From an uncultured Mucilaginibacter sp. (GTDB lineage Bacteria > Bacteroidota > Bacteroidia > Sphingobacteriales > Sphingobacteriaceae): a DNA stretch of 61,730 nucleotides. The translations under genes and the position numbers were made by a program. Every line of letters starts with the position of its first letter. Positions within the stretch are counted from its first letter, which is position 1. The notes beneath the pieces are model-generated. The model ran no database searches. It saw only the letters and a list, made by a program, of their open reading frames with translations, and was not told the DNA's origin. Positions 13,486-19,093 of the stretch are shown in pieces. The stretch is from contig CAIYNX010000023.1 of the NCBI GenBank assembly GCA_903927645.1, positions 1 to 61,730 on the forward strand. The letters run 5' to 3'.

Positions 13486-13526
13486 AAAAAAAAGCAATAA
13501 CCAATTCTTGGTTATTGCTTTTTTAA
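13486..13526. terminator. Strong terminator after the DPP4-like gene
   Basis: A perfect 17-bp stem (13488-13504 with 13508-13524) closes a 3-nt loop and is flanked by A and T runs on both sides. It would act in either direction and insulates the carotenoid operon. Confidence 0.92.
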
Positions 13527-13554: not shown

Positions 13555-13593
13555 TTGTCATTTTAAACATTTGTTTGTCATCTTTATGTCTAA
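13555..13593 (+). promoter_or_regulatory. Direct repeats upstream of the carotenoid operon promoter (candidate operator)
   Basis: TTGTCAT occurs at 13555-13561 and again at 13575-13581, exactly 20 bp apart (about two helical turns). Variants ATGTCTA (about 13586) and TTGTCTA (13634) follow, the last overlapping the -7 promoter element. Repeats in phase just before and in the promoter would suit a MerR-type dimer or tetramer such as the adjacent CarH-like protein, but this is inference. Confidence 0.35.
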
Positions 13594-13606
13594 TATTAAT
13601 GCTTTC

Positions 13607-13636
13607 TTTGTTGCAGTAATATCTTCACTATTTTTG
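13607..13636 (+). promoter_or_regulatory. Promoter of the carotenoid operon
   Basis: TTTG (13607-13610) and TATTTTTG (13629-13636) match the Bacteroidota -33 (TTTG) and -7 (TAnnTTTG) elements with an 18-bp spacer. Transcription would begin near 13643, about 23 bp before the TTG start of the regulator gene. Confidence 0.65.
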
Positions 13637-13665
13637 TCTAAATAATTTTTAAATTATATAAACAA

Positions 13666-14565
13666 TTGACATTCTCTATTTCAGATCTAGAACAACTTTC
13701 AGGAATCTCAACTCATACAATTAGAATTTGGGAACGAAGATATAATGCGCTAAAGCCCGACCGTTCTGCAGGAAATACCCGTTTCTATAACGATAATCAG
13801 CTAAGGCGGTTATTGAATATAGTAAGTTTGGTAAATTCAGGTGTTAAAATATCAAAAGCCTGCACAATAGAAGAAAGCGAAATGGATACTTATTTACAAA
13901 ATGAAATGGATAAAGACATTTCTAATAAGCTCCATTTTGATAATTATGTTAATAAGCTCATAAAATATGGCTTTGATTATAATGAAAACCTAATTAATAT
14001 ACTTCTTAGTGATTGTATTGCCAACTATGGTGTTACAGAAACTTATAAAAGTGTTATTTATCCTCTATTAATCAGATTGGGCATCATGTGGCGTACAGAT
14101 GTATATTGCCCTTCTCAAGAGCACTTTTTAACTTCCATAATTCGGCAAAAATTATTTAGCGCAATTGATAGTCTCCCGCTAAATCCAAATGCTAAACAAA
14201 GCTGGTTGCTTTTTTTACCTGAGGATGAAGACCATGACATTGGATTATTATTTGCAAATTATTTACTACGATTAAATGAATATCATGTTATTTATTTAGG
14301 ACCAAAGGTACCCATTAGTTCTGTGGCCCATGCAGTACAAAAAAACCCAATTAGCAATGCCTTGGTTTTTTTTATAAAATCAAGATCATTAACAGAAACA
14401 AAAGTATACTTAGGTGAATTGTCAACTATATTTAAAACTTCAAAAATAAATCTTGCAGGAAACGTAAAGTTTATTGAAAATTTAGAATTAGGCCAAAATA
14501 TAAATTGGCTAAAAACCTTAAACGAATTTGAACAGATTATAAACTCTGCTAAAGATGCTCAGTAA
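13666..14565 (+). CDS. CarH/LitR-like MerR regulator with B12-binding light-sensing domain
   Basis: A 299-residue transcription factor with a TTG start. Residues 2-68 are a MerR helix-turn-helix (IWERRYNALKPDR, NTRFY). A helical-bundle cap domain (about 90-165) holds W142 and E152-H153, exactly the W-x9-EH motif by which CarH/LitR proteins hold the adenosyl group of adenosylcobalamin. The Rossmann-like B12 domain (about 178-290) has E188-x-H190-x-x-G193, whose His can ligate cobalt. In known CarH proteins a dark tetramer represses carotenoid genes and green or blue light breaks it apart. Its 3' end overlaps crtI by 11 bp, so it is autoregulated with the operon. Light response itself is inferred from motifs. 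Confidence 0.88.
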   Translation: MTFSISDLEQLSGISTHTIRIWERRYNALKPDRSAGNTRFYNDNQLRRLLNIVSLVNSGVKISKACTIEESEMDTYLQNEMDKDISNKLHFDNYVNKLIKYGFDYNENLINILLSDCIANYGVTETYKSVIYPLLIRLGIMWRTDVYCPSQEHFLTSIIRQKLFSAIDSLPLNPNAKQSWLLFLPEDEDHDIGLLFANYLLRLNEYHVIYLGPKVPISSVAHAVQKNPISNALVFFIKSRSLTETKVYLGELSTIFKTSKINLAGNVKFIENLELGQNINWLKTLNEFEQIINSAKDAQ

Positions 14566-16060
14566 TTCAAGAAATAAAATACCTAAAGTAGCAGTAATTG
14601 GTTCTGGATTTGCCGGCTTAAGCGCTGCAGCTTATTTAAGTAAGAGCGGTTACCATGTTGATGTTTACGAAAAAAATGAACACATTGGTGGTAGAGCAAG
14701 ACAATTATTGACCGAAAATGGGTACCTTTTTGATATGGGACCCAGTTGGTATTGGATGCCCGAAGTTTTTGAAAAATTCTTTAACGATTTTGGATATACA
14801 ACCTCAGATTTCTATAAGCTTGATTTAATTGACCCGGGATTTACAGTAGTATACAGGGAAAAAGAAGTGATGGATATTCCGGCAAATTTTGAGGCATTAT
14901 GCAATTTATTTGAATCTGTTGAAACTGGAGCAGCCGAAAAATTAAAATCTTTTATGGATGAAGCTGCCTATAAATATAAGGTTGGTATGGATAAATTGGT
15001 ATACAAACCAGGTCTTTCATTAACCGAGTTTATTGACATTGAATTAATAAAAGGTGTATTTAAATTACAAGTATTCGCATCCTACAGTGAGCATGTACGT
15101 AAATTTTTTAAAAACCCCCAATTAATTACTTTGATGGAATTTCCGGTACTATTTTTAGGTGCCACGCCTGAAGATACACCTGCCCTATATAGTTTAATGA
15201 ACTATGCCGGGTTAAAATTAGGCACATGGTATCCTCAAGGGGGTTTTGGTGAAGTAATTAAGGCTATGAAAACGGTTGGTGAAAAAAATGGAGTAACTTT
15301 TTATACCAACGAACCAGTTACAGGAATTGAAACAAATAATAACTCAGTAAGCTTATTAACTACTTCTAAACGAAGCGAAAGTTATGATGGGGTTATTGCT
15401 GCAGCTGATTACCATCACATAGAAAATACTTTATTAAAAAATTCAAACAGAAACTATGATGAAAAATATTGGGACAGCAGGGTTATGGCCCCATCATGTT
15501 TGATATTTTATTTAGGAGTAAACAAAAAGATTTTAAATTTAAAGCACCATACCCTGTTTTTTGATGAGGATTTAAAACAACATGCCATTGAAATTTATAA
15601 AGACGCCAAATGGCCATCAAAGCCACTTTTCTATGTTTGTTGTCCTTCAAAAACAGATGTAAATGTTGCACCAGAGGGGCATGAAAATTTATTTATTTTA
15701 ATGCCAATTGCACCAAATTTAACTGACAACGAAGAACTAAGGGAAAAGTATTTCGAATTAATTATGGATAGGTTAGAAAATTATGTTGGCGAGGAAATCA
15801 GACTACATATTGATTATAAAAAGGGGTACTGTGTTAACGATTTTAAAATGGATTATAATTCATTTAAAGGAAATGCCTACGGTTTAGCCAATACGCTAAT
15901 GCAAACTGCTAACCTAAAACCATCAATAAAAAATAAAAAAATTGATAACCTTTTTTATGCTGGTCAGTTAACGGTACCCGGACCAGGAGTGCCTCCCTCA
16001 ATAATTTCTGGCAATGTAGCTGCTAAACAACTTATTAAGTATTTTAACAACAACTTATGA
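14555..16060 (+). CDS. crtI: Phytoene desaturase
   Basis: A 501-residue FAD enzyme that converts phytoene to lycopene in four desaturation steps at the membrane. The FAD motif VIGSGFAGLSAAAYLSKSG starts near residue 12 and is followed by GGRARQL and FDMGPSWYW. The C-terminal CrtI signature FYAGQLTVPGPGVPPS is near residue 468. Its start overlaps the end of the regulator gene by 11 bp and its stop overlaps crtB by 4 bp, indicating translational coupling. Paralogues include other carotenoid desaturases and diapophytoene enzymes, but the neighbours fix a C40 role. Confidence 0.95.
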   Translation: MLSNSRNKIPKVAVIGSGFAGLSAAAYLSKSGYHVDVYEKNEHIGGRARQLLTENGYLFDMGPSWYWMPEVFEKFFNDFGYTTSDFYKLDLIDPGFTVVYREKEVMDIPANFEALCNLFESVETGAAEKLKSFMDEAAYKYKVGMDKLVYKPGLSLTEFIDIELIKGVFKLQVFASYSEHVRKFFKNPQLITLMEFPVLFLGATPEDTPALYSLMNYAGLKLGTWYPQGGFGEVIKAMKTVGEKNGVTFYTNEPVTGIETNNNSVSLLTTSKRSESYDGVIAAADYHHIENTLLKNSNRNYDEKYWDSRVMAPSCLIFYLGVNKKILNLKHHTLFFDEDLKQHAIEIYKDAKWPSKPLFYVCCPSKTDVNVAPEGHENLFILMPIAPNLTDNEELREKYFELIMDRLENYVGEEIRLHIDYKKGYCVNDFKMDYNSFKGNAYGLANTLMQTANLKPSIKNKKIDNLFYAGQLTVPGPGVPPSIISGNVAAKQLIKYFNNNL

Positions 16061-16893
16061 AAGAAAAATTTGATACGCTTTCAGCAAAATGCAGTAAAAT
16101 AGCCACAAGACATTATAGTACAAGTTTTTCGTTGGGAATTTACTTTTTTAATAAAAGTTTAAGAGGTCCAATTTATTCAATTTATGGTTTTGTTCGCTTA
16201 GCTGATGAGATTGTTGATAGCTTCCATAAATATGACAAACCCTACTTACTACAAAAATTTAAAAAAGACTGCTATGAGGCTATTGAACAAAAAATAAGTT
16301 TAAACCCGATTTTAAATTCTTTTCAACAAGTGGTTAATACCTACGGTATTGAAAAAGAATTGATTGATTTGTTCCTGAAAAGCATGGAAATGGACCTTGA
16401 AGATATTTCTTACACACCAGAAACATACGAAGAGTATGTTTTAGGTTCGGCGCAGGTGGTGGGCTTAATGTGCCTTCATGTATTTACTGAAGGTAACCAA
16501 ACAAAATATAATGAGTTGAAAAACGCTGCAATGAAACTTGGATCAGCATTTCAAAAGGTAAACTTTTTAAGAGATATTAGTGCTGATTATGAGCACCTTT
16601 ATCGAACATATTTTCCTAATGTAAATTTAAAGGCCTTTACCGATGATGATAAGGCATTGATAGAGCAAGAAATAGAAGAAGAATTTGAATTAGCATTACA
16701 AGGAATAAGGCATTTACCAGCAACATCCAGATGCGGAGTATATGTAGCTTTTATATTTTATCGGAAATTATTTTACAAGATAAAAAGTATACCTGCAGAA
16801 AAAGTTTTACAAAAAAGAGTGCGTATATCAAATGGATATAAATTTTTATTGATGTTTAACTCTTTAATAAGGAATAAATTAAACACCATATGA
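16057..16893 (+). CDS. crtB: Phytoene synthase
   Basis: A 278-residue all-helical prenyl synthase that condenses two geranylgeranyl diphosphates to phytoene. Both magnesium-binding Asp-rich segments are visible: RLADEIVDSF (about 48-57) and KVNFLRDISADYEHL (about 167-181). The substrate-contact residues TRHYSTSFSLG are near the N-terminus. It overlaps crtI by 4 bp and the next unknown gene by 4 bp. No geranylgeranyl diphosphate synthase gene is in this operon, so its substrate must come from elsewhere in the genome. Confidence 0.95.
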   Translation: MKEKFDTLSAKCSKIATRHYSTSFSLGIYFFNKSLRGPIYSIYGFVRLADEIVDSFHKYDKPYLLQKFKKDCYEAIEQKISLNPILNSFQQVVNTYGIEKELIDLFLKSMEMDLEDISYTPETYEEYVLGSAQVVGLMCLHVFTEGNQTKYNELKNAAMKLGSAFQKVNFLRDISADYEHLYRTYFPNVNLKAFTDDDKALIEQEIEEEFELALQGIRHLPATSRCGVYVAFIFYRKLFYKIKSIPAEKVLQKRVRISNGYKFLLMFNSLIRNKLNTI

Positions 16894-17396
16894 AGATTGG
16901 TTGGTTGTTGTTTTTACTATTAATTTTAACAAACCCCATGCAAAATGCTAGTTTAAATGAAATTAGAACATTATACGCAATGGCTCCAAATAATAGAATT
17001 GCTTCAGAAAAACTTTCAACCTTGTGTTTAAGTATCGATTCAATAGCCAGTCCTGTTTTAGTTTGCTACAAGGGTGCTTCAACCATGATCGAGGCCAAAT
17101 ATCAGATAAATCCATTGAACAAACTTGCAAAGTTTAATGAGGGAAAATTACTTATTGAGAAAGCTTTTAAACGAGAACCAAACAATATAGAAATTAGATT
17201 TATAAGATTTTCTATTCAAACAAATATCCCAACTTTTTTGGGCTACCATTCTGATATTGAAGAGGATAAAAAAAATCTTATCAATAACATGAGTTTAATT
17301 GCCGACACATTGCTGAAAACAAATATTAATAATTGCCTGTCAAAGTCAAAATATTGTACCATTGAAGAACTTAAAAAATTAAAGGATAGTGACTGA
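16890..17396 (+). CDS. Uncharacterised exported helical protein embedded in the carotenoid operon
   Basis: A 168-residue protein. Residues 1-21 are a hydrophobic signal-like segment (IGWLLFLLLILTNPMQNA). The remainder is predicted helical with a TPR-like feel: LNKLAKFNEGKLLIEKAF followed by REPNNIEIRFIRFSIQTN and PTFLGYHSDIEEDKKNL. Three cysteines in the mature part (two near residue 47-60, one or two near the end) could form disulfides. It overlaps crtB by 4 bp and idi by 8 bp, so it is translated with them. I recall similar proteins in carotenoid operons of other Bacteroidota, but no function is known to me. It could organise or assist membrane-bound carotenoid enzymes; this is a guess. Confidence 0.8.
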   Translation: MKIGWLLFLLLILTNPMQNASLNEIRTLYAMAPNNRIASEKLSTLCLSIDSIASPVLVCYKGASTMIEAKYQINPLNKLAKFNEGKLLIEKAFKREPNNIEIRFIRFSIQTNIPTFLGYHSDIEEDKKNLINNMSLIADTLLKTNINNCLSKSKYCTIEELKKLKDSD

Positions 17397-17916
17397 AAGT
17401 GTAATACTGGTTGATACCAATGACAATGAATTAGGAGAAATGCAAAAAATGGAAGCCCATTATAAAGGGATATTGCATCGCGCATTTTCTATTTTTATAT
17501 TTAATACCAAGGGTGAACTTTTATTGCAACAGAGGGCATTAAATAAATACCATTCGGGAGGTAAGTGGACAAATACCTGTTGTAGCCATCCCCGAATTGG
17601 AGAAACAACACAAAACGCTGCCAATAGACGTTTAAGGGAAGAAATGGGTATGGAATGCTCCTTAAATTATGTGTTTAATTTTACCTATTATGCCGAAATA
17701 ATGGAAGGTTTATATGAACATGAATTTGACCATGTTTATTTTGGAACTAGTGATTATGAACCAGTTATAAACCCTACAGAGGTTTTAAATTATAAGTATA
17801 TTTCGATGGATAATTTAGAAAATGAATTAATTCTAAATCCGGAGGACTATACAGAATGGCTTAAAATTTGTTTTAATTTAGTTAAAGAAAATTATAAAAA
17901 TATACTTATACAATGA
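17389..17916 (+). CDS. idi: Isopentenyl-diphosphate delta-isomerase, type I
   Basis: A 175-residue Nudix-fold enzyme that interconverts isopentenyl and dimethylallyl diphosphate, balancing the two C5 precursors. The type I signature is clear: ALNKYHSGGKWTNTCCSHP (catalytic Cys in CCSHP, metal His), RRLREEMGMEC (Nudix-like helix) and LYEHEFDHVYFG (catalytic Glu). A GTG start at 17389 is chosen because the conserved SVILVDTNDNELGEMQK must be included. It overlaps the preceding gene by 8 bp and crtZ by 4 bp. Its place in the operon implies boosted precursor supply for carotenoids. Confidence 0.95.
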   Translation: MTESVILVDTNDNELGEMQKMEAHYKGILHRAFSIFIFNTKGELLLQQRALNKYHSGGKWTNTCCSHPRIGETTQNAANRRLREEMGMECSLNYVFNFTYYAEIMEGLYEHEFDHVYFGTSDYEPVINPTEVLNYKYISMDNLENELILNPEDYTEWLKICFNLVKENYKNILIQ

Positions 17917-18386
17917 ATCCGATTTTGATAAATTCACTTACAGTATTAATTACCTTTATTGGGATGGAAGGTGTTGCTTGGTTGGCACATAAATATTTAA
18001 TGCATGGATTTTTATGGACGCTTCATGAAGACCATCATCATAAAGAACATTTTGGTTTTTTTGAGCGAAATGATTTTTTCTTTTTAATTTTTGCCATTCC
18101 CGGTATCGCTGGTTTAATGGCTGGTATTTATTTAGGGGTAACAGTAGCATTATACATTGGTATAGGAATTACCCTTTATGGTTTTACTTACTTTTGGGTA
18201 CATGAAATTTTTATACACCAACGCTTCAAGCTATTCCGAAATACGGAGTCTGCTTATTTTAGAGCAATAAGAAGAGCTCATAAAATTCACCACAAGCATT
18301 TAGGTAAGGAAGATGGCGAATGTTTCGGAATGCTATGGGTGCCGTTTAAATATTTTGCAGAGGCGAAAAAAGTGAAACAAGCATGA
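17913..18386 (+). CDS. crtZ: Beta-carotene hydroxylase
   Basis: A 157-residue membrane di-iron hydroxylase that adds 3- and 3'-hydroxyl groups to beta-carotene to give zeaxanthin. The histidine clusters are HKYLMHGFLW with HEDHHH (about 26-42), HEIFIH (about 95-100) and RRAHKIHHKH (about 118-127). Hydrophobic segments span about 5-24 and 52-90. It overlaps idi and the cyclase gene by 4 bp each. With no ketolase in the cluster, zeaxanthin is the expected local end product. Confidence 0.95.
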   Translation: MNPILINSLTVLITFIGMEGVAWLAHKYLMHGFLWTLHEDHHHKEHFGFFERNDFFFLIFAIPGIAGLMAGIYLGVTVALYIGIGITLYGFTYFWVHEIFIHQRFKLFRNTESAYFRAIRRAHKIHHKHLGKEDGECFGMLWVPFKYFAEAKKVKQA

Positions 18387-19093
18387 AATCGGCTTATTTG
18401 CTGGTTGATATTTTAACCATTTTTGTTCCTTTTTTATTTTCGTTTCATCCGAAATTGCTTTTCTATAAAACATGGAAAGCATTTTTTCCGGCAGTAATCA
18501 TTACCGGAGTCGTTTTTATTGTTTGGGATATTTACTTTACCAAGTTAAGAGTATGGGGTTTCAATCCAACCTATTTGATGGGTATATATATAGGAAATTT
18601 ACCAATTGAAGAATTTTTATTCTTTTTTTGTATTCCTTACTCATGTGTTTTTACTTACCATTGCTTGGCACTATTTATTAAAAAAACACCCTCTAAATTA
18701 TGGGAAACAACTATAACCTATACTTTGATTGTTGTTAGTTTGGTTTTAGCCGCGTATTACCATGAACAAAAGTACACCATATCTACTTTTTTATTAATGT
18801 CTTGCTTATTGCTTTTTACCTCTAAGGTATTAAAAGCAGAATGGCTTGGTAAGTTTTACCTAATTTATCCAATTTTAATTGTTCCACTTTTAATTGTTGA
18901 TGGGGTGTTAACAGGCACCGGACTTAACAATCCCATAGTTTGGTACAATCCTTCAGAGTTTATTGGATTAAGGATAATGACAGTTCCGGTTGAGGATATT
19001 TTTTATGGTTTGGATTTAATTTTTATAAATTTAGTTATTTATCAATACTTAGTCAATAAAAACCATATCCCCTTCAATAATAAGGCTATTTAA
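18383..19093 (+). CDS. crtY: Lycopene cyclase, CrtYcd/CarR membrane type
   Basis: A 236-residue integral membrane protein with about seven hydrophobic segments. It contains two homologous lycopene-cyclase domains: the first with NLPIEEFLFFFCIP (about 72-85) and the second with TVPVEDIFYGL (about 204-214), giving the paired P-x-E-E/D motif of fused CrtYc-CrtYd enzymes. These cyclise lycopene ends to beta-carotene without net redox change. It is the last gene of the carotenoid operon, overlaps crtZ by 4 bp, and ends 6 bp from the convergent mutY stop. No clear terminator is seen between the two. Confidence 0.9.
   Translation: MKSAYLLVDILTIFVPFLFSFHPKLLFYKTWKAFFPAVIITGVVFIVWDIYFTKLRVWGFNPTYLMGIYIGNLPIEEFLFFFCIPYSCVFTYHCLALFIKKTPSKLWETTITYTLIVVSLVLAAYYHEQKYTISTFLLMSCLLLFTSKVLKAEWLGKFYLIYPILIVPLLIVDGVLTGTGLNNPIVWYNPSEFIGLRIMTVPVEDIFYGLDLIFINLVIYQYLVNKNHIPFNNKAI

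Follow-up and report, generated by a model that had tools for sequence, protein, structure and literature searches.

A putative CarH-type light regulator and its predicted inverted-repeat operator at carotenoid and rhodopsin genes of Sphingobacteriaceae

How bacteria turn on rhodopsin genes in light is, to our knowledge, an open question, and some Bacteroidota are reported to make carotenoids on exposure to light although no sensor is known for it. Light-responsive carotenoids have been described in an isolate of Sphingobacterium siyangense (PMC6739363) and light-induced ones in Chryseobacterium lacus, where neither car nor lit genes were reportedly detected (PMC7064467). A MerR-type regulator gene at the head of a carotenoid operon in an uncultured Mucilaginibacter sp. 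raises the question of whether such a sensor is encoded there. In our assessment it quite probably is, the regulator being a CarH/LitR-type adenosylcobalamin (AdoCbl) light-sensing repressor of its own crt operon and probably of a rhodopsin-blh operon.

The window, i.e. the whole stretch of 61,730 nucleotides analysed, belongs to a 3.7-Mb draft genome that is 88.85% complete. The gene of the CarH-like regulator (13666..14565, + strand; ORF call, profile and fold comparisons) encodes 299 aa from a TTG start codon, a position occupied by ATG in most relatives; residues are numbered here from the TTG at 13666, and position 13555, where the initial annotation began, lies in DNA upstream of the ORF. 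It is followed on the same strand by crtI, a phytoene desaturase (14555..16060; TIGR02734 1e-118, NF058655 2e-216), a crtB-type member of the phytoene/squalene synthase family (16057..16893; PF00494 3.9e-42), a 168-aa protein of no known family (16890..17396), the isopentenyl-diphosphate isomerase gene idi (17389..17916; NF002995 3.3e-46), a crtZ-like hydroxylase named from its operon context (17913..18386; PF04116 2.8e-11) and a lycopene cyclase with CarR-type domains (18383..19093; PF18916 1.4e-38, TIGR03462). The 168-aa protein has no Pfam or NCBIfam match and occupies the same position in the crtI-type operons of relatives (tblastn); in C. lacus, a hypothetical protein next to crtB is described as induced by light (PMC7064467). 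Upstream of the regulator, a hairpin with a T-run (AAGCAATAACC-N7-GGTTATTGCTT; 13492..13524, + strand), read from the sequence and with its hairpin shared with the relative L002, is likely the terminator of the preceding peptidase gene, so that the regulator would head its own transcription unit. Its overlap of 11 bp with crtI is real (14555-14565), but the autoregulation initially deduced from it does not follow, since an overlap favours co-transcription and is not by itself a sign of autoregulation. The regulator is nonetheless likely autoregulated, as a conserved inverted repeat, considered below, sits at its own start.

The predicted protein combines a MerR helix-turn-helix (residues 3-65; 13672..13866, + strand), confirmed by Pfam MerR_1 (PF13411, 6.5e-15) and by alignments to 2jml and 5c8d, with a B12-type domain. 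Its recognition helix RIWERRY (residues 20-26, including Arg24) displays the RxWERRY feature of CarH/LitR. The initial annotation had regarded the CarH motifs as complete; this holds for the residues that it named, all found exactly as given, and fails for the equivalents of His132, GxxH, SxT/V and GG. Aligned with Thermus thermophilus CarH (TtCarH), W142, E152, H153, E188, H190 and G193 match W131, E141, H142, E175, H177 and G180, whereas His132, Val138, Gly174 (of GxxH), Ser222 (of SxT/V) and the first G of GG are replaced by Arg143, Pro149, Asp187, Phe235 and Ala264. The cap motif thereby reads W142-R143-x4-C148-P149-x2-E152-H153 (14089..14124, + strand). The published B12 motif associates Wx9EH with D/ExHx2G/Px41SxT/Vx22-27GG (PMC9304148). 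Its lower-ligand part is present as E188-D189-H190-D191-I192-G193 (14227..14244, + strand; alignment), with His190 as the putative lower cobalt ligand, and its second half retains the spacings of 41 and 26 with FxI...AG instead of SxT/V...GG, F235-F236-I237 (14368..14376, + strand) having lost the Ser and A264-G265 (14455..14460, + strand) lying at the GG place in the alignment. Similarly, three of the four SignatureFinder elements (GxxW, EH, GxxH, GxxxP) are found, GxxH being D187xxH190. The Trp of Wx9EH, which distinguishes CarH from the B12-independent CarA (PMC9304148), is lost in CarA and present here as W142. Cys148-Pro149 (14107-14112), invariant in the clade defined below, occupies the Gly-Val place of TtCarH beside the adenosyl group.

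The expectation that routine annotation would not name CarH proved right, the NCBIfam CarH model NF052513 giving 84.6 bits where 400 are required; Pfam B12-binding_2 also remains below its cut-off (20.3 bits for 23). When 27 sequences are combined into a profile, Thermus CarH is matched at 5.4e-28 across positions 2-241, covering both domains, and the resemblance is therefore not due to chance. Judged from its sequence, the regulator is classed here as a variant of the CarH type: it has the core features, but its B12 motif is not the full one, GxxH and a tandem operator are lacking, and its score stays under the NCBIfam cut-off.

Conservation was assessed on an alignment of 66 loci, 20 from 60 genomes (the window's own included) and 46 from genome contigs. 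A clade of 52 loci (L001-L006, L021-L066), which counts the window and a small number of duplicate genes, comes from records of Pedobacter, Mucilaginibacter and others titled Sphingobacteriaceae or Bacteroidetes, and 14 homologues (L007-L020) fall outside it. The nearest named record is L021, an uncultured Mucilaginibacter MAG with 79% protein identity. W142, E152, H153 and H190 are present in 52/52 clade loci, window included, and in all 14 others; G139, P149, G212 and P216 are also invariant in the clade, as are F235, G265 and N266 in the 51 loci covering that part and Cys148 in the 51 full-length loci. The peptide PEDEDHDI (185-192) was among the six search peptides, and invariance there is partly due to selection in the 46 contig loci, whereas W142, E152 and H153 lie outside all six. 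Position 143 is R in 42 clade loci, L in nine and S in one, and His occurs there in one of the 14 homologues outside the clade. A crt gene comes next after the regulator in 45 of the 46 loci L021-L066 (crtI 13, crtB 32), the remaining locus being cut off.

Several observations concern the distribution of these genes. The 32 relatives with regulator then crtB (L027, L029-L038 and others) have idi next in 29 cases and no crtI within 1.8 to 6 kb downstream. Among 37 same-genus genomes (own included), crtI is found at 1e-60 in 31, the clade regulator in six and a weaker match in G031; in the same-genus sample of 61 genomes the regulator occurs in seven. Two crtI genes each are present in G012, G013, G017, G022, G025 and G031; identity to the crtI of the window is 64-71% for the first copy and 54-56% for the second, and three of these six genomes have the clade regulator. 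One TAA lies within the regulator match of L004 (G012). At E 0.01 no paralogue was detected in the window's own genome, and a search of plasmids for a Thermus CarH gave none among the 40 records listed of 163.

An AlphaFold model built with 27 sequences (pLDDT 86.5, pTM 0.80) presents the four-helix cap and Rossmann fold. The structural comparison with Thermus CarH suggested at the outset gave it as the top match (5c8e, with a VIA-align Z of 21.2 over 197 residues and an rmsd of 2.4), ahead of CtMerR of Chloracidobacterium thermophilum (21.0), photocobilins (18-20), AppA (16.4) and methionine synthase (16.3); the fold of such a model does not by itself demonstrate the ligand. Taken with the alignments, a CarH-like architecture with the adenosyl-face residues and the lower-ligand His is supported. 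The nearest solved relatives are Thermus CarH/LitR (PDB 5C8A/D/E/F, 3WHP, 8C31) and CtMerR (8JBS/8JBT). The former shares the MerR helix-turn-helix, helical cap and Rossmann B12 domain (17% identity in the B12 domain) and differs in having His132, Ser222 and GG for Arg143, Phe235 and AG. Its interface pair Arg176/Asp201 is apparently charge-swapped (Asp189/Lys214; position 214 is K in 44 clade loci, R in seven, Q in one), and its dimer-dimer Gly160 and Gly192 correspond to P171 and E205, P171 being found in 26/52 clade loci and Gly at 205 in 26/52. In myxobacterial CarH, as far as described in the cited text, the pair is likewise acidic-basic, many proteins having Glu-Arg or Asp-Arg at the Asp189/Lys214 place (PMC9304148), and one interface Gly is often Pro, like P171; myxobacterial CarH and CarA also share with the regulator the control of crt genes and the RxWERRY helix, with Wx9EH in CarH. 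The B12 domain of CtMerR likewise has Arg at the His132 place, but retains the GxxH that the regulator lacks. The photocobilins SasPcob and AbDPcob have a light-responsive AdoCbl domain of the same fold, likewise without His132, but unlike the regulator they carry a second bilin chromophore and are not MerR proteins.

The predicted operator is an inverted repeat, TTTGTCTA-N18-TAAACAA (13633..13665), with half-sites at 13635-13640 and 13659-13664, which abuts the TTG start and was also retrieved by a whole-genome pattern search. After four of the 52 clade loci had been dropped, 48 upstream regions were available, and TGTnnA-N18/19-TnnACA lies directly before the regulator start in 48/48, window included. 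The spacer is 18 in 25 loci and 19 in 23, the other spacers from 8 to 30 giving one match in total. Chance expectation in shuffles is 0.5% per locus (1% for the window), and two upstream control blocks gave 0/48 each. At 70% ungapped identity the 80-nt upstream stretches form 27 groups; identity to L002 is 90% in the last 105 aligned columns vs 52% farther up. One regulator of the 14 outside the clade, L008, has TGTTTA-N19-TAAACA 26 nt before the first aligned codon, with crtI nearby.

Characterised CarH operators contain the TnnACA half-site in tandem 11-bp repeats, as described for the proteins covered in the cited passages (PMC9304148, PMC8156234), and the half-site is common to Thermus CarH and the predicted operator, tandem there and inverted here. 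Myxobacterial operators are likewise described as tandem direct repeats, which CarA is thought to read rather than inverted repeats. Tandem 11-bp TnnACA pairs were found within 150 nt upstream in 0/48 loci. A possible degenerate tandem-type site in the window (13576..13614, + strand) comprises TGTCAT (13576), TGTCTA (13587) and TGTTGC (13609) in 11-bp register; a full TGTnnA tandem pair was not found there. Among the papers listed for the open-access PMC literature we found none on CarH in Sphingobacteriaceae, on an inverted-repeat CarH operator or on CarH associated with proteorhodopsin.

The arms of the repeat pair as TT/AA in 28 of the 48 loci, CT/AG in 13, CT/GG in three, CT/AA in two (window and L002), CC/GG in one and TC/AA in one. 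Residue 24 of the recognition helix is Gln in 29/29 loci with T in the half-site and Arg (18) or Ser (1) in 19/19 loci with C, an association that amounts to about one event on the tree. The covariation of the arms, with three changes per arm on a quick tree, was rejected as strong proof of an operator. In the window the two arms of the repeat differ (CT/AA), and by itself this copy is not exceptional: palindrome statistics are not significant there, a different inverted repeat scoring best and 27 of 100 shuffles doing as well. The left arm overlaps the sigma-A -7 consensus TAnnTTTG (PMC9723704) exactly in 7/48 loci and as TAnnTTTT in 24, while seven lack such an element; in the window the place of a -7 element at the left arm is uncertain.

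A second site was found in the same genome. On contig C142, TTTGTCTA-N19-TGGACAAA lies 66 nt ahead of a microbial rhodopsin gene (PF01036 3.4e-45), with blh (PF15461 6.3e-41) next after it; the operon is located at C142:7731-9548 of the genome (G000, L107). Mere chance was considered for this near-palindromic site and dropped once the downstream gene had been identified as a rhodopsin. By our estimate, were eight matches to fall at random, one of them would lie within 100 bp upstream of any given operon in only about 2 of 10,000 cases. In the nearest relative, G003, the rhodopsin is 98% identical and TGTCTA-N19-TGAACA stands 65 nt before the ATG, in flanking DNA that is also well conserved. 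From these sites, the rhodopsin-blh operon is a probable second target of the regulator. Rhodopsin is present in 2 of the 31 chosen genomes and 30 of 399 genomes of the family, and the repeat occurs within 250 nt of it at 9/30 loci vs 0.5 expected: those of the own genome, G003 and seven of genus g41, where it precedes rhodopsin in 7/7 genomes vs 0.08 expected in upstream stretches only 38-60% identical, one pair at 86% excepted. It is absent from the other 21 of the 30 loci, belonging to other genera and to the same-genus G274 and G451.

Other targets were sought in whole genomes. Of the 26 sites retrieved with the strict pattern TTTGTYTA-N18/19-TARACAAA from 23/29 genomes, 23 are at the regulator start and three elsewhere, the reversed control pattern also giving three; the 61 genomes of the genus yielded 13 sites, five at regulators and eight in genomes without the regulator, for 11 with the control. 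Sites of this pattern away from the regulator are at background level. Further targets cannot be excluded with it, because the window's own site and the rhodopsin site (TGGACA and TGAACA arms) escape it. A loose pattern gave nine matches in the own genome vs five for the control, and most of them are thus due to chance: besides the regulator and rhodopsin sites, six are inside or behind ORFs and one (G000:C185, L099), probably chance, is 51 nt ahead of a 178-aa ORF.

Two loci of genus g41 hold a cluster of light-related genes. The DNA surrounding 18 rhodopsin genes, some 0.28 Mb in all, contains 10 sites of the form TTTGTnnA-N18/19-TnnACAAA, eight before rhodopsin and two (L139, L140) before a pterin operon of PTPS and GTP cyclohydrolase I, gene families confirmed in L140 only. 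Both loci hold, about 9 kb from rhodopsin, a CarH-like gene (32% identity, E 5e-45 and 8e-49) with Wx9EH, ExH and Gln24, and, in agreement with the Gln24 rule, T is the base in the half-sites near these regulators. The CarH-like gene of L140 adjoins two genes of its own strand, one photolyase-related and one for a DNA photolyase; in this locus, lycopene cyclase and blh come after rhodopsin. The cluster of L139 and L140 also holds an ABC1 kinase, with families confirmed in L140 only. No inverted repeat was found at the own start of these two regulators, and no regulator at 1e-5 in the other five g41 stretches.

The His132 place bears on whether such a protein would respond to light. The regulator cannot use the bis-His state of Thermus, and TtCarH H132A is described as mostly still tetrameric after light, failing to monomerise (PMC10442372). 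This, together with Arg or Leu at position 143 in nearly all clade loci and the changed tail-side motif, would agree with a sensor of cobalamin status, which would bind AdoCbl or another cobamide, repress crt under ample B12 and, for want of the His132 switch, respond little to light. We consider this unlikely, since CtMerR with Arg at the His132 place is reported to be a tetramer in the dark and a monomer in light (PMC11796333), and since the sites precede light-related genes (crt, rhodopsin and, in g41, a pterin operon by photolyase genes). Light sensing by the regulator is therefore still likely, and a light-controlled repressor the likely interpretation of its role; by analogy with CtMerR, the photoproduct should be aquo/hydroxocobalamin because Arg143 replaces His132. 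A dimer would be as likely as a tetramer, the AdoCbl-bound Cystobacter CarH being described as a dimer. The genome encodes one PduO-type, AdoCbl-making adenosyltransferase (201 bits) and one cobalamin riboswitch (102 bits), ahead of an ORF read by eye as a BtuB-like receptor.

A B12-independent relative, CarA-like or akin to class II LitR, in which the B12 domain would be vestigial or serve as a scaffold while light is sensed by something else, is very unlikely. The two departures of the regulator from the full B12 motif would suit it; moreover, CarA is described as retaining the motif while needing no B12 (PMC8156234), and one class II LitR as working with a LOV photoreceptor (PMC9758184). 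CarA, however, lacks the Trp of Wx9EH, whereas Trp, EH and H190 are kept here in 52/52 loci. It is highly improbable that the regulator is an activator of its targets like a classical MerR protein: most MerR proteins are said to act from a promoter dyad (PMC9478572, PMC8156234), but the repeat runs from the predicted -7 element to the start codon region rather than between promoter boxes, and the CarH proteins described in the cited passages are repressors (PMC9304148, PMC8156234). There is scarcely any likelihood that the repeat, for all its closeness to the start codon in regulator loci, is an RNA hairpin or the site of another regulator, as it stands 65-66 nt before the ATG at the rhodopsin gene, residue 24 tracks its half-site base, and TAnnTTT(G/T) overlaps its left arm in 31/48 loci, where transcripts would begin inside the repeat.

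For the light-sensing repressor, we propose the following cycle. The regulator would hold adenosylcobalamin between its helical cap and Rossmann domain and, in the dark, bind as an AdoCbl-loaded oligomer to TGTnnA-N18/19-TnnACA repeats; at 13633-13665 this would shut off the regulator itself and crtI-crtB-hyp-idi-crtZ-crtY, and a second repeat, the one on contig C142 before the rhodopsin-blh operon, would probably be bound as well. On exposure to green or blue light the Co-C bond would break, weakening the oligomer, which would leave the DNA; carotenoids would then be made, Blh would cleave beta-carotene to retinal and the rhodopsin could be assembled. On return to darkness, new repressor with new AdoCbl would reclose the genes. 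More tentatively, and with slightly less than even confidence, we suggest a CarH-type light regulon of Sphingobacteriaceae with a palindromic operator, which would combine carotenoids, a rhodopsin pump (where present) together with the enzyme that makes its retinal, and a pterin operon beside photolyases in the case of one genus, and which would function without bis-His. The pocket may have been rebuilt, with Arg143 and Cys148-Pro149 on the adenosyl side and Phe235 and Gly265-Asn266 on the tail side; regulon and rebuilt pocket taken together are a reading that we hold as possible, a little short of an even chance. Cys148 might be a new upper ligand.

What is new here is the predicted inverted-repeat operator layout for a putative CarH-type light regulon joining carotenoid, retinal and rhodopsin. 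The regulator would tell the essentials of B12 photoreceptors from the specialities of Thermus, and since its operator is short and easily recognised at crt and rhodopsin-blh genes, the light control of carotenoids and that of rhodopsin can both be put to the test in Pedobacter or Mucilaginibacter relatives that grow in culture.
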